Source: Pascua guehoae
Taxonomy: Eukaryota > Basidiomycota > Tremellomycetes > Trichosporonales > Trichosporonaceae
DNA: 64,000 nucleotides
Reading direction: 5' to 3'
NCBI GenBank assembly: GCA_001600415.1
Contig: BCJX01000005.1
Coordinates: 1,362,260-1,426,259, forward strand
Positions 1,376-17,667 of the stretch are shown here, one piece after another (within the stretch, counting starts at the first letter, position 1; every line of letters starts with the position of its first letter). The notes under the pieces are model-generated. The model did not search any database. It was not told where the DNA came from and saw nothing but the letters and a program-made list of their open reading frames with translations. The translations under genes were made by a program, and so were the position numbers.

Positions 1376-4300
1376 ATGTCTGTTGCAGTGCGTCAGCCCC
1401 ACGATATCAAGACCGAGTCGCGCGACGCCGAAATGGCCGAACGCGAGCACCAACAGCGCGAGCGCGAGCGCGACCATGCCCGTGATGACCACACCCCTCG
1501 CCGCCCCCAGCCAGCACAGCCTGCTCAAGTAGCCCAACCCGCCCGCCAACGTACTCCACACACCAACTCGCGCTCTCCCCACGACAACGACGCCTCGCCC
1601 AACACCAAGGCCAGTGGTTCGCGCTCTGGATCCGCTGGAAGCCCCAGTGGCGCAGGGGGCGACGGTGCAAAGAGCAAGGGCAAAGGTGGCGAGAAGTGGG
1701 TCGAGAGCGTCGACTATGCGTACGAGTATGTCCCCGTGTCCCAGAAACGCGAGGGAAGGAAAAATATGTGAGTGCTGGTTGTGTAACTTGTGCTGGATCC
1801 CACGCCCGCGTCTACCTGTGATGCTGGGCGAGCGGCCCAAGGCACGAGACCAAACCCTAGTAGATGTGCTTGGGTTTCGGCGACAACGATAACGAAGACC
1901 GTACAGCACGCTGACATTGCTTCTTTCTTGCACGCTTCCTTTATCTTGCCCTTATCCCTCATTCCCCACCATGCGCCCTTTTCGTACAATTCTGCGACTT
2001 GTAGCTCGTATGAGCTTGTCATGCGCCAACAGCCCATGCAGGCGCGCATGTGTGGTGTCGGCGAGAAGTGTAAGTGGTCCAGAACGTGCAAGGGCTATCG
2101 GCTGACCCGCGCAGCGGACAGGCGCCCTGTCGACCCCACCCCGATAATCCAACTCAAGGTCACCACAAGCGACGGCGAGGACGTAACGCCCGTTGACCCG
2201 CGCACACGCGACACGACGGACAAGGCGGGTCTCACGCGTCCTATCCCAAACGGCAACGGCATGCTGTTCATGCAGAGTGAGCTCACAGATGGCTGCCAGA
2301 GAAAAGCTCGGGTGCTGATGACAGACCCGTACTACTTTCTCTTTGCGTGCCTTGTCGGCGGCGACGACCAGGACTCGGAGCTGCACGTGATCGACGACGG
2401 CCGGACGCGTTTCCTCACTGGCACGCCCGTGTCGTCGCTCTACCATCTCAAGGACATTGACAACAAGGACGCCGCGTTCTTTGTCTTCCCCGACCTGGGT
2501 GTCCGCAAGGAAGGTCGCTACAAGCTCAAGCTCACGCTGTTTGAGATTGTCGACCAAGAGGTCTACTACTGCACGACCGTGCTCACGTCGACCTTCTCCG
2601 TCTACTCTGCCAAAAAGTTCCCGGGCATGTCCAAGGCGACAGAGCTCTCGCGTGCGTTTGCGGAACAGGGCTTAAAGATTCGCGTGCGCAAAGACCCACG
2701 CCCCGCCGGCCGCAACAAGCCGAAGCGTAAGAGCAGCGCCCAGTCGGATGACGAGGACCCGTATTCCAAGCGTACTCGTCACGCCCTCACTTATCCGGGT
2801 GCTGGCCACCCTGTTGATCCCCGCTACGGCCCAGAAGGTCACTATGCGACCTACCCGCCGCCGACTGGCTACGGCTACCAGCCGTACTCTCAGATGCCTC
2901 CCCCGCCTCCTCCTGCGTTTGAGGGGTACCGCCCTGGTTCGGCAGGTCCGCCGCCAGGCTACCCGCCCCACCCGGGCCACCCAGCTCCGCCGCATGGCTA
3001 CCCCCAGCAGCCATACAACCCACCTGGCTACCCGTACCCCCGTGACCCCCGTGACCCCCGTGGGCGCCACCCGTCGCTGCCACCGAACAGCTATCCGTCT
3101 GAGCCGTATGGGTATCCTCAAGGAGGACCTCCTCCCGGTGCCCCCTACGACCCACGCTGGGGTGACCGAGACCCTCGCGAAGTACGTGACCCTCGCGACT
3201 ACCACGACATGCCGCCGCGCGACTTGCCACCTCGGGACCCACGTGACCCCCACGACCCGCGTGACCCTCGCGACCCACGCGAGCTCCGCGGGTCTGTCGA
3301 GCCTACTACTCGTTCAGTCCCTCGCGAGCTCCCACCACGCGATGTGCAGGCTTGGGATCCACGCGACCCTCGTGCCGTTGATCCTCGCGTTGACCCTCGC
3401 GTTGACCTCCGCGACCCTCGTGCTGTTGACCCGCGCGACCCTCGTGCCGTTGACCCGCGCGACCCTCGCGCTGTTGACCTCGGCGTGGACCCGCGGGTCG
3501 ACCCTCGTGCTGTGGACCCACGGGCAGTTGACCCTCGTGTCGACCCTCGTATTGACCCGCGTCTTGACCCCCGTGATCTTCGTGGCGACCCCCGCGCCGA
3601 CCCCCGGGCCGATCCGCGTGCCGATCCCCGCGCCGACCCTCGTGTCATTGACCCGCGCGACCCTCGGGCGGTTGACCCCCGCGACCCTCGCGCCGTTGAC
3701 CCGCGCGCTGTTGACCCTCGCGCCGTTGACCCACGGGCAGTCGACCCTCGCGCAGTTGACCCTCGCGCAGTCGACCCTCGCATGGACCCCCGTCTCGACC
3801 CCCGTGTTGACCCTCGCCTCGACCCCCGTATGGACCCCCGGGTCGACCCCCGGGTTGACGCTCGCGACCTCCGAGACCCTCGTGACCCTCGTGAGCTCCG
3901 AGACCCGCGTGATCCTCGGGACCCTCGCGATCCCCGTGGAGACCCCCGCGACCCCCGCCACGAGATGTATTACTCGTCTCGTGGACAGTCGCCGTACAAC
4001 AACACGCCGCCTCACAGTGCGGGTGCAGCCATGCCTTCACAGCCGAATGTGTACCCCATGCACGAGCGCCCACGCACAGTGTCGTCGGCAGCGCCGCGCG
4101 AGGCCCACGCCTCGCCGGTTGTTCACGGCCATGGACGCCTCCCGTCCATCTCGCGCGCCGACGGCCCTCCCTCACTCGGCGCATACCCGCGTGATGCCCA
4201 GTACCGCGACCCCCGCGACCCGCGTGACCCTCGTGACATCCGCGACCCTCGGGACCCTCGCGAGTACCCACGCGACCCGCGAGACCCTCGGGAGCCTCGG

Positions 4301-4570
4301 GAGCCCCCGATGCCGCGCGACTACCCTCCTCCGCCTCGCGAGTATGTCCGCGACCCCCGTGACCCCCGTGACCCCCGCGACCCACGCGACCCCCGTGACC
4401 CTCGCGAGTACCGCGAGTTCCCGCGTGAGGACTCGCGCCCGCCTTCGGGGTGGAGTGGCAAGCACAGCGGCACGCACAGCAGGTCGCTCTCGCACCGTTC
4501 GAGCGAGCGCGCGCCGTCGCCGGAATCCAAGCCCACGGGGCGGATGGGTCTCGGCCATCTTGTCGACTAG
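1376..4570 (+). CDS. Velvet-family transcription regulator with long Asp-Pro-Arg repeat tail
   Basis: Velvet proteins are fungal DNA-binding regulators that dimerise in the nucleus and couple development to metabolism. Model: exons 1376-1767, 2005-2069 and 2115-4570, 970 residues. The velvet fold covers about residues 133-350. It opens with YELVMRQQP, continues through GEKSDRRPVDP, which forms only when the 45-nt second intron is removed, and ends with the FPGM, LSRAFAEQGLKIRVRKD block. That last block resembles VelB/VosA, but I cannot assign the subfamily. Residues 1-130 are polar and disordered. After residue 350 come a basic KPKRK patch, a Pro/Gly/Tyr-rich stretch, and then about 300 residues dominated by DPR and VDPR units, with a second DPR block near residues 845-921. 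The second intron is a multiple of three without stops, so an automated call may leave it in. Start chosen as the in-frame ATG that leads into exon 1; the extreme N-terminus is less certain. Confidence 0.88.
3034..4430 (+). repeat. Asp-Pro-Arg coding repeat array (two blocks)
   Basis: The sequence encodes dozens of DPR, DPRDPR, AVDPR and VDPR units, mainly at 3034-3960 with a second block at about 4189-4430. Asp, Pro and Arg codons vary between units (GAC with CCT, CCG or CCC, then CGT or CGC), so this is not a clean DNA-level microsatellite. The reverse strand shows matching long open frames rich in RGS or TARGS, which are shadows of this repeat. Confidence 0.9.
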
Positions 4571-13341: not shown

Positions 13342-14116
13342 GGTGAAGGGTGGTGAATGTGGAGTAGTAAAAAGGAAAGGGTGGCGAGTGGAGATGTGAA
13401 GAGTTGTGGAAGAGATGGGAGGAAGAGTGGGGGAGACATGATGCGGGCCATGGGTAGTGTTTTTAAATGATCGAGCTGGGGGGTGACGCCCCTTGGGAGG
13501 CCCAGAAGCGTTAAGCGATTAGACTAGGTGGCGAGGAAGACGACAAGGTGACTGGGGTGAGTGACTGGGTTGCGTGGGAAGACGAGGGCAAGGTGAGATG
13601 GGGCCAGGCTACGCCAGCGCGCCACGAGCTGGGGGGGAAGGGGGAGAGCGCTGGTGAGTCGAAACGGTGGCGTCCAGACGTCAGAGGGGCGCTCGAGCAA
13701 GCACATGCAGATGACCAGGATAATGTTGAGCCACCTGCCCCACTCTAGTCACGAGGTGGGTCGTAGAATGGTGCAAAGTGGGGGGTGAGAGGCCTGTCGT
13801 CGCCAGTGTGCCTCTGTTGCGTGCCAAGGGGGTTGGCGGGTGATGGCAACTGGGGTGGTGATGGAGACGAGGCAGTGCGTGAGAGGCCACATGTCGAGGG
13901 GAAAAGGGGGGAGGAGAAGAAGCAGTGCACAAATGCGTGGTGAGGAGGTGCACTGGCGTCGTGGGGCAATTAGACATTATTGTTGATTGGGTAGTAGACG
14001 ACGAGGACAAGAAGAGAGCGATGAGGTTGAAACGCCTGCACGTGGGTGAACAGGCCGCGTGGCTGCAGTCTGTCTGTCCCCCGACCTCCCTTTGCGTTTG
14101 TACCTTGGTGACTTTT

Positions 14117-14117
<1 letters not shown>

Positions 14118-14172
<55 letters not shown>
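14118..14172 (+). repeat. TAA trinucleotide microsatellite (about 18 units)
   Basis: Uninterrupted TAA repeat of 55 nt in intergenic DNA. In other frames it reads as poly-Asn or, on the minus strand, poly-Tyr; neither is coding. Confidence 0.95.
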
Positions 14173-14173
<1 letters not shown>

Positions 14174-14349
14174 GTATGCCAAGATGCCTGCCTGGCCTGC
14201 CTGGATGCCTTGTGGGTGGGGTGACGCGCGTTGACGCGGCAGAGGGGAAAAAAAAGCAAACTGGATCGATCAGGCCCACTATTACAACGAGGTCTGTGCG
14301 CGAGGCGTCGTGGGGCGCACGATGCGCCCAGTCGCAATGCGCCCAGAGG

Positions 14350-14351
<2 letters not shown>

Positions 14352-14413
<62 letters not shown>
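14352..14413 (+). repeat. GA dinucleotide microsatellite (about 31 units)
   Basis: Uninterrupted GA repeat of 62 nt in intergenic DNA, about 180 nt from the TAA microsatellite. Confidence 0.95.
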
Positions 14414-14416
<3 letters not shown>

Positions 14417-16342
14417 CGGGGGCGCAGAGGCAGTGCGTGCATTGTGCGTGTGTGTGCATTCTCCAACCCACCCAGTTTTGAGCTGCACATTTCTGTCAAC
14501 AACAGAGTGAGCGAGGAAACACGGCTCCCTTTTATCAGCGACCAACGTATTGTGTGCCCGGAAACTGCACAGCCGCACTTGTGCATTGGAGGACATTGGG
14601 CTTAGATCCTGTGCTCGATGCGGTGCACGCTGTGATAGCTGTGCTGGGAGCAGCAGTATTGTCGCCACCACCAGGTGACTGTTTCGGGCCCTTTACACCC
14701 CATCTCCCCATCCATTGGCGCCGGTCACTCCGGCCCACGGCGATTGGGGCTCGGAAGTGGCGGCCCGATTACCGTCCGAGTGGACGTGCTTGCCAGGTGG
14801 CGCTTGGACGCTGCTGCGCTGCTGTGCTGCCAAAGTCCCGACCACAGGGCCTTTGATGCGCGCTGGCACATCCAATGTGAGGCATGCGGCGGATACCTCG
14901 CCGAGGATCAAACACTGCTCAAACACAGGCGCATGGCCCAGAGAGCACTGCTCTTGGCACTCGGGGGTGGACACAATGGAGGCATTGTCGAGTTGAACAA
15001 AGGACATGCCCTCTCCCTCCGAGCATGCATAGTTGCACAGGAAGAAGACCATCATGCCCACTACTCAAGAGCGAGCAACAGCATCGGACAAGTGCGGAGC
15101 GCCGTCCATGGGGAGTCCGCAAATGTCCGAGAATCAAGTGACCCGCATCAACAAGCAGGCACGCAGATGAGTGACCAGTTAGATGGGGGAAATACGCCCG
15201 CGTTCCTGATGGGGGCGTGCCTCCGAAGCATCATCTCCATGGCCTCCGATACAACGGCGTGGGAAGAAGCAACGGGCTCTCTGCCCTCGCTGTCCGATCG
15301 TGTCCGAGCACCGATCATGTCGAGCACTGTTTCTCGTGCCTGCACCGCACCTCACTTCGGCGTCAGGGGTCGGCGCCGGCTGGTACTGTGCTGCTGGAGG
15401 GGGAGGTATCCCGTGCGAGTGTCGGTGCAAGCCGAGGAAGGCTTCAGGTGGGCGGGGCGTTCAGACGTACAGAGGGACCGCCAGACCTCGAGGGCGAGGG
15501 TGGGTCCGTGCGCGCTAGTTGATGCTCGCCGAGTTGCACGGCAAGTGGGGGTGGGTGACAGAGTGATTAATAAACACTACTGTAAGTATCCGATCGTCGG
15601 AATATCCAAAGATCGACACTTTGTAAAGGGCTACCTGGGCAGCTGGGCTGCACACACCCCGGGGGTCGAGCTCAACCCGCGCATTGCGCGTAGCGTTTCG
15701 CATGCGGCCGCGTCGCTAGCTCGCTAGCTTCGGCTCGGTCGGGTAGATGACCGCAGGGATGCTGCGCCTCTACGCTGCTGGGGCTGCAAGGCGGACGCCG
15801 GACGCCGGACGCCGGAAGGATTCAGTCGATGCATGGCCATGCCCGCAGAACAGCGCAGGGTCGCGACGCGGTCGCCGGACTAGTTCGGTCTTGGGGGGTC
15901 GCGTGGCGGTGGCGCGGTGGCGGTACAGGTTTGGAGCTCGTACTGGTGGTCAGTAGGTAGTTGGGTCGCAAGCATGGCCATCATGAACGAATGGATAGCT
16001 GGCAATCAGTGAATGGTCAAGGTCATCGTGGTGAGAGATGGAGAGCGAACGCGGGTTGGAGTTTGTGTGGTACTTGTATTTGGTTCGTTGCGCCAGCCTA
16101 TCAGCGTCATCCGTGTCCGGTGACGTCATACCATCGGATTGCGTTCGGATGATCGGGTGTGATGAAAAGTCGGGAACGAGGCCTTGTGCTTGGCGAGGTC
16201 TGGATCTGGATCTGGACGACTCACGACTCACGCTGCTCACCGACTCACAACGCGTGCACAGCACCCAGTGAGGGAACGGGTACATATCTACAAACGTGAA
16301 GCATCCTCTCCTCCATCTATCCGGTCTCCCCACTGCCCCGCC

Positions 16343-16968
16343 ATGTTCAACTTCTACCTCACCTACGGATGGCTGTACTTTACGCGCCCGTCCGCGCCAG
16401 CCCCGGTCCCCGACGGTCTCGAGCGGCACTGGGTCAAGACGCGCGGCGGGGACATTGAAGTCCTCACCGCGCCAATCCCCGCCGACACGCCCACAACGCC
16501 TGGCCCGCCCATCGTCTTCTGCCACGGCGGCATGGGCGGCGCCTGGGTGTGGGCAGAGTACATGCGCTACCTGGCCGCGCGCGGCGTGCGGTGCTACGCC
16601 GTCTCGGTCCGCGGCCACGGCGGGTCGTGGTATCCTTTCTTCCTCCGCATGGTGTGCGCTACGCCCCGGAGCGCGCTCGAGGACGACCTCGTCGCGGCCA
16701 TCGACTGGGTGCGCGAGAAGGAGGAGGCGAACGAGGTCGTCCTCGTAGGCCACTCGAGCGGTGGGGGGCTCTCGCAGTCGGTCTTGGCGCAGGGAAGGGT
16801 GCAGGCGAGGGCGCTTGTGCTCCTCGGTGCCGTGCCGGCTTTTGGATCGTGAGTGTACACACCGCCCGCCGCTATTACCGATTGAATGGCTTTGTGAGAT
16901 CTCCGGATTGGCATTAGGAAGCCGGCAACGGCATCCTTTGGCCGAGAAGTTGGTCAAACTTGGCCATT

Positions 16969-17014
<46 letters not shown>

Positions 17015-17667
17015 CAAGGATGTGAGGAGTGAGGGGCCTACAGCCGCAGGCTGTGGTTGCAAGGTCGCTCGGCGTACATATGGGCTTGGTGTCGGTACTA
17101 GTGGTGCCTGGTTGCCGATCTGTCGATCCGCCGAACCACCGACCCACCTGTGTACCCCACTGACACCACAGCTTGGGCGTGTACATCAACTGGTGGCGTC
17201 TCGACCCATGGTTCACGCTCCGCTGCGCTTTGCAAGCCTGGCACCCCAACTCGCCCCTCTCGTGCCCCGAGCTCACACACCGAGCCTTCTTCGGGAGCGC
17301 CTTTCCGTCCTCGGCCGTGATCCCGTTCCAGAAGCGCATGAGCCGCTACGAGAGCTACATGTGGCCGTTCAGCATGATGCGCCCGTTTGCGACCGCTCCC
17401 AAGATTCTCGCCCATGTTGGCCAAAACAACACGGAGGGTACGAGCCGGCCACGCGTGCTCGTCATGGCCGGGTCGCAGGACAAGCTCATGACGCCCGACG
17501 TCACGCGCCAGACGGCCGCATTCTACCGCGCCGCCTCGGACGGCGTGGGGGACGACAAGGGCGTGCGCATGTGTCTCGTCGAGGGCGCGGGGCATCATCT
17601 CCAGAACGACGTGCAGTGGGAGGATGGTGCGGCCAGGCTGTTGGCGTTTTACAACGAGGTCGTATAG
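16343..17667 (+). CDS. Alpha/beta hydrolase with an 18S-derived sequence in its intron
   Basis: Alpha/beta-hydrolase-fold enzyme, probably a lipase- or esterase-like protein; the substrate is unknown. Exons 16343-16848 and 17172-17667, 333 residues. The oxyanion motif is HGG in FCHGGMGG. The nucleophile elbow is GHSSG with S138, the acid is D272 in GSQDKL, and the base is H310 or H311 in EGAGHH. All three catalytic elements are present and in the expected order, which argues for an active enzyme. The join TC|C gives FGSLGVYINWW and preserves frame. The 323-nt intron contains a 168-nt degenerate copy of the 3' end of 18S rRNA (annotated separately), starting five bases after the donor. An N-terminal hydrophobic stretch (FYLTYGWLYF) could anchor it to a membrane, but this is weak. 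Confidence 0.9.
16854..17021 (+). pseudogene. Degenerate 3'-terminal fragment of 18S (SSU) rRNA inside an intron
   Basis: The sequence follows the highly conserved 3' end of eukaryotic 18S rRNA. It has the TGTACACACCGCCC element, then CGATTGAATGGCTT, CTCCGGATTGG, GAAGTTGGTCAAACTTGG, AAGTCGTAACAAGGTTTCCG and TAGGTGAACCTGCG. It stops at GGAT, about five bases before the mature 3' terminus. Several substitutions against the universal sequence (for example CCCGCCGC instead of CCCGTCGC, and CGCAAGG instead of CGGAAGG) mark it as a non-functional, diverged copy. It lies on the coding strand of the host intron. The 5-mer GTGAG occurs directly before it (16849-16853, the splice donor) and directly after it (17022-17026). 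Confidence 0.92.

Follow-up and report, generated by a model that had tools for sequence, protein, structure and literature searches.

The sole intron of an alpha/beta hydrolase gene was found to harbor a 168-nt fragment from the 3′ end of 18S rRNA, which makes up 52% of the intron (168 of 323 nt) and is bordered on both sides by the direct repeat GTGAG, the left copy of which is the 5′ splice site. With about even confidence, we interpret the fragment as a 5′-truncated copy of the 18S 3′ end that was written into an already existing intron by primed copying at a staggered break. Such a fragment in an intron is a known type of genomic debris, and the initial annotation of this DNA, which reported an rRNA-derived sequence making up half of a protein-gene intron, was right in outline. 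All positions given without a contig refer to the window, that is, the whole stretch of 64,000 bases that was analyzed, and the features described for the hydrolase gene and its intron lie on the forward strand.

The identity of the fragment (16854..17021, helices 44 and 45) as the 3′ end of 18S rRNA, as initially proposed, is certain. The Rfam model SSU_rRNA_eukarya matched 16860-17018 with 126.5 bits (E 7.9e-34), with no other Rfam match in the window reaching gathering score, and the fragment, located at C5:1379113-1379280 in the assembly, aligned to positions 1628-1795 of the 1800 of yeast 18S with 85% identity, the yeast query sequence having been typed by hand. The fragment ends 5 nt short of the mature 18S end, and no A tail was observed there, with the terminal GGAT being followed directly by GTGAGGAG. 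Much of the divergence from yeast is confined to the variable portion of helix 44. Only two of the 69 strongly conserved (upper-case) Rfam sites are changed, 16869 T>C and 16875 C>T, which weakens the earlier statement that the fragment has many substitutions; that it is not recent does not follow either, given that these sites are nearly intact and that the assembly yielded no host 18S gene for comparison. The alignment used contains 47 standard and 15 non-standard pairs, with most of the latter lying in variable helix 44, for which the Rfam consensus is itself weak, and position 17015, a lower-case Rfam site, carries C where yeast has G, which disrupts a pair of helix 45. A helix-44 stretch, CATTAGGAAGCCGGCAACGGCATCC, is common to the intron copy and to C25, the second 3′-end 18S fragment of the genome (one base short at its end in C25), and is absent from the yeast 18S query, a pattern that fits descent from the host's own 18S. 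In C25, five of 42 strongly conserved sites are changed, gaps counted. Scans of public contigs for the variable helix-44 sequence yielded 0 stretches in viral contigs (two scans) and 0 in genome contigs.

The hydrolase gene (16343-17667) consists of two exons separated by one intron. Exon 1 (16343..16848) matched the Pfam family Abhydrolase_1 (3.6e-16), and a search of the genome (33.6 Mb, 28 contigs) with the hydrolase protein returned only its own two exons, residues 1-170 matching exon 1 and residues 168-333 matching exon 2 (17172..17667, including the stop), so the gene is single-copy. The intron (16849..17171) begins with GTGAGT and ends with ACAG, and its likely branch point is CTGAC (17160..17164), the sole match in the intron to the branch-point motif YTRAY, located 7 nt upstream of the final AG. 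Removal of 16849-17171 leaves an open frame of 333 aa, and the junction FGS|LGVY aligned without a gap at that place in all 11 hydrolase homologs compared, which were picked from 120 listed and include one, P0113, without its N-terminal part. The remainder of the intron outside the 18S piece is unique in the genome and the gene is intact on both sides within a contig of 2.25 Mb, and the initial view that a misassembly is unlikely was thereby strengthened. Among the homologs listed, the hydrolase has about 66% identity to Hypocreales ascomycetes (Fusarium) and about 61% to Trichosporonales (Cutaneotrichosporon), and the higher identity to Hypocreales may point to horizontal transfer or differential loss. 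The 3-oxoacid CoA-transferase encoded in the window has its nearest named relatives in Vanrija, Cutaneotrichosporon and Trichosporon (79-82%), in line with a Trichosporonales-like host. Elsewhere in the window, a long ORF at 2021-4570 carries a DPR-rich repeat run (RDPRDPRDPR and AVDPR units), with an N-terminal part that presumably resembles a velvet-type regulator, and long simple repeats whose translations in several frames are poly-N and RE/SL runs were observed at about 14059-14481.

The two GTGAG copies, at 16849..16853 and 17022..17026, abut both ends of the fragment, and both resulting donors agree with CAG|GTAAGT at five of nine positions. They differ at +6, where the upstream donor has T, the first base of the insert, and the downstream donor has G; a T at +6 would generally make a fungal donor stronger than a G. 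Splicing from 16849 is predicted to restore the reading frame. The downstream copy, proposed earlier as an alternative 5′ splice site, is a poor candidate, as its computed use would retain 173 nt, shift the frame and read FGS-stop at once, which makes the duplicated donor a liability.

The earlier reading of the GTGAG repeat as a target-site duplication, with insertion at intron position +5, was supported in part, in that the copies abut the fragment, the first is the donor and the 18S sequence starts at intron position +6, but the duplicated stretch may be 10 bp long and extend into the exon. The exon ends in GGATC, which together with the splice site forms GGATCGTGAG (16844..16853), the left copy of the candidate duplication, and this aligns to GGAT-GTGAG, that is, to GGATGTGAG (17018..17026), as a putative right copy that has lost one base and whose GGAT doubles as the end of the 18S fragment. 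GGATC is found both at the end of the exon and close to the 3′ terminus of 18S; 18S itself reads on as GGATC, and the right junction lacks that C. In the 64,000-base window, 102 positions (0.16%) have identical 5-mers bordering a stretch of 168 nt, and under a blunt-insertion model 352 of 63,976 positions do. A 9-of-10 match such as GGAT(C)GTGAG was observed at four of the 63,976 blunt-insertion positions; among 400,000 random pairs of flanks, 12 showed one. This test was post hoc, having been devised after the sequence was known. When the flanks were aligned locally without such framing, the best alignment reached p = 0.049 with 15-nt flanks and p = 0.32 with 40-nt flanks. Overall, the GTGAG repeat is moderately significant. 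In the available part of a survey of 213 introns, direct repeats were described near the borders of all of them (PMC11782384), suggesting that short repeats beside splice sites are easily found; the repeat found here likewise includes a splice border, but it borders the insert and not the intron.

At least 11 dispersed rRNA fragments, 50-278 bp in length and in both orientations, were detected in the genome, with three places obtained with the yeast 18S query and eight with a query of 5.8S and partial 25S; the count is a lower bound, as only the best candidates were scored and the 25S query did not include its last part. As far as the queries reach, the other ten derive from the interior of 18S or 25S and not from 3′ ends, and the intron copy is the only fragment seen between the exons of an identified gene. 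With 11 fragments scattered through the genome, no special cause has to be invoked for the intronic location of one of them, and the rarity that was initially emphasized was overstated, given this number and the existence of precedents. A Pfam scan of 20 ORFs selected from ten loci revealed families at L008, L011, L014 and L015, with most of the ORFs having none, and no gene spanning another rRNA fragment was found among these ORFs; some of the other fragments may still lie in introns or UTRs of uncharacterized genes. None of the other ten fragments is abutted by an exact repeat of ≥5 nt, with 0 or 3 nt of slack allowed, indicating that the GTGAG repeat is not an artefact of end calling. The longest fragment, L009 (locus positions 1297-2401; C13:1087467-1087744), is a 278-bp piece of 25S with 95% identity to yeast and belongs to an insert of ~830 nt. 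This insert interrupts a short element with inverted repeats (arms of 31 nt, 90%), of which another copy, at C2:1326829-1327114, lacks the middle part. Parts of the L009 insert match many other places of the genome. Another 25S fragment, L016 (locus positions 1467-1654; C1:2064894-2065016), lies between imperfect direct repeats of ~31 nt (flank-test p 0.0015), which exceed the usual length of a target duplication. The assembly yielded no intact 18S: a conserved 28-mer with ≤3 mismatches matched the intron copy only and yeast 18S matched only the three fragments; the 5.8S/25S query likewise gave fragments only, and the assembly seems to lack the rDNA array. Two mobile-element origins were considered, of which the first is judged improbable and the second was discarded. 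GTGAG could have belonged to an element through an end, GGATGTGA, common to C25, but the recognisable similarity to C25 ends 37 nt (against the intron copy) or 50 nt (against yeast) before GGATGTGA, and covariance alignment placed the GTGA of C25 in the helix-45 loop. Against a mobile family headed by 18S sequence, the rest of the intron is unique and the fragments derive from different rRNA regions.

We infer that the intron copy arose by primed copying, for which an even chance seems a fair estimate. A strand exposed at the break and ending in ...GATCC would have paired with GGATC close to the 3′ end of 18S and served as the primer for copying, which would have proceeded upstream through helices 45 and 44 and halted at TGTACACACC, where the far end would have been joined without homology. 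Fill-in of the stagger would then have duplicated GGATCGTGAG, that is, the exon end with the 5′ splice site, and the right copy would later have lost its C. As the insert starts with T, the upstream donor now reads GTGAGT; it would keep the protein intact, and the insert would be removed with the intron and decay as neutral sequence. Primed copying of 18S RNA, its cDNA or its gene would account together for the position near the 3′ end, the shared GGATC, the homology-free truncation at the 5′ end and the repeat; a random piece of rDNA would not be expected to end 5 nt short of the mature 18S terminus. The rarity of the 9-of-10 match, the lack of abutting repeats at the other ten fragments and the pseudogene-like change at 17015 also argue for it. 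Against it are the post hoc nature of the 9-of-10 test, the right copy being one base short, the weak results with wider flanks and the internal position of the other ten fragments as far as the queries reach.

The genome contains 55 reverse-transcriptase matches, and the frames were read at eight of them, five being judged by eye. L038 (C3:1378500-1383500) matched R2 retrotransposon proteins weakly (E 8.6e-05), pointing to a reverse transcriptase of the non-LTR type, which counts in favour of primed copying; on the other side, no match to the LINE endonuclease domain Exo_endo_phos_2 was obtained in the genome at E 0.001. L034 encodes RNase H and integrase domains and is thus of the LTR type, and L040 contains RVT_1 only, with no match among solved structures. 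By eye, the open frame of L039 (C7:336500-341500) is very similar to that of L038, and its reverse transcriptase looks R2-like as well. According to the accessible portion of one report, the human genome contains tailless retropseudogenes of 5′-truncated 18S (two) and 28S (ten), for which internal priming was proposed (PMC5322556), and the intron copy resembles them, so far as that portion describes them, in being a 5′-truncated rRNA copy with no A tail, with a candidate short target duplication and a 3′ junction that internal priming may explain. The human cases belong to the L1 system, whereas the present one is in a fungus and has a short candidate duplication that is imperfect by one base if it is 10 bp long. 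More specifically, 18S rRNA itself may have been reverse-transcribed in place at the exon-intron boundary that matches GGATC, the duplication giving a second, better donor (GTGAGT versus GTGAGG) and today's splice site being a by-product, a version that we consider rather unlikely.

The neointron of Daphnia is said to have been originally reported by Li et al. in 2009. It derives from an insertion of mitochondrial 16S rDNA, and 33 exon-end repeats of 4-12 bp, ascribed to staggered breaks, were described in the part of the source available (PMC4202315). On that description, both cases combine sequence derived from an rRNA gene in a spliceosomal intron with short direct repeats, but the Daphnia intron was newly gained from a mitochondrial source, whereas nuclear 18S sequence most likely enlarged an existing intron here. 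A nuclear 18S fragment in the intron of a fungal protein gene was not found among the titles and abstracts that searches of open-licence PMC listed, which is weak evidence of absence.

Capture of a piece of rDNA when a staggered double-strand break was sealed by end joining, without any RNA and with the nearness to the 18S end arising by chance, is a tentative alternative that deserves serious weight, being somewhat less probable than primed copying. The fragments of many 18S and 25S places in both orientations are consistent with it, and it fits the ten other, internal, fragments better than primed copying does; the composite insert of L009 may likewise resemble multi-donor break repair. By itself, however, it gives no account of an end 5 nt inside mature 18S or of GGATC. 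Templated insertions at yeast double-strand breaks were reportedly described by Yu et al. in 2018. The portions consulted of two further reports point in opposite directions, with rDNA being among the inserts at breaks in aged yeast cells (PMC10802722, preprint), while very few rDNA insertions occurred in the mutants studied in PMC11724301, in contrast to Dna2-deficient cells. Both there and here, short stretches copied from rDNA or from elsewhere were inserted at breaks or putative breaks, but the yeast breaks described were experimental and at one locus, whereas the insertion here is fixed in the genome and carries a repeat.

Gain of the whole intron at once, with the 18S piece belonging to a composite insert placed in the exon, is improbable. 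For it speak the share of the 18S piece, half the intron, and the remainder of the intron, which is unique in the genome and carries another GTGAG at 17029; GTGTACA also occurs both at the insert start (16853) and in exon 2 (17179). This sharing of a short 7-mer is likely due to chance, and the remainder has an ordinary branch point and acceptor. The second GTGAG is moreover intron nucleotide 174 of 323, so that the repeat borders the 18S piece and does not lie at opposite ends of the whole intron. Retention of the 18S stretch for a function, for example as a structured RNA that steers splicing or as a released small RNA, is more improbable still. The 67 intact sites of the 69 strongly conserved ones and the folding of the intron, which is stabler than 98 of 100 shuffles (z -2.2), would agree with it, but the source 18S is already structured and conserved, so both are expected of any young rRNA copy; the change at 17015 disrupts its helix pair, and such an intron did not turn up in a second gene. 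Most likely, the insert has no function. A chimera of an 18S read with the gene, in assembly or library, which leftover or filtered rDNA reads might suggest given the missing 18S, is hardly credible in view of the changes at conserved sites, the sharp repeat-bordered ends, the intact gene and the ten other diverged fragments.

The intron provides a clean example of growth by foreign sequence without damage to the gene, in which the duplication of the donor would preserve splicing. The dispersed rRNA scraps of this genome, about a dozen, offer a record from which break repair or retroposition can be studied, and they can mislead the mapping of 18S reads and contamination screens; the intron copy spans conserved regions that we take to be targeted by V9 primers. 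If 18S rRNA was indeed reverse-transcribed in place at the exon-intron boundary, rRNA retro-insertion would be a route by which fungal introns lengthen while a working donor is kept.
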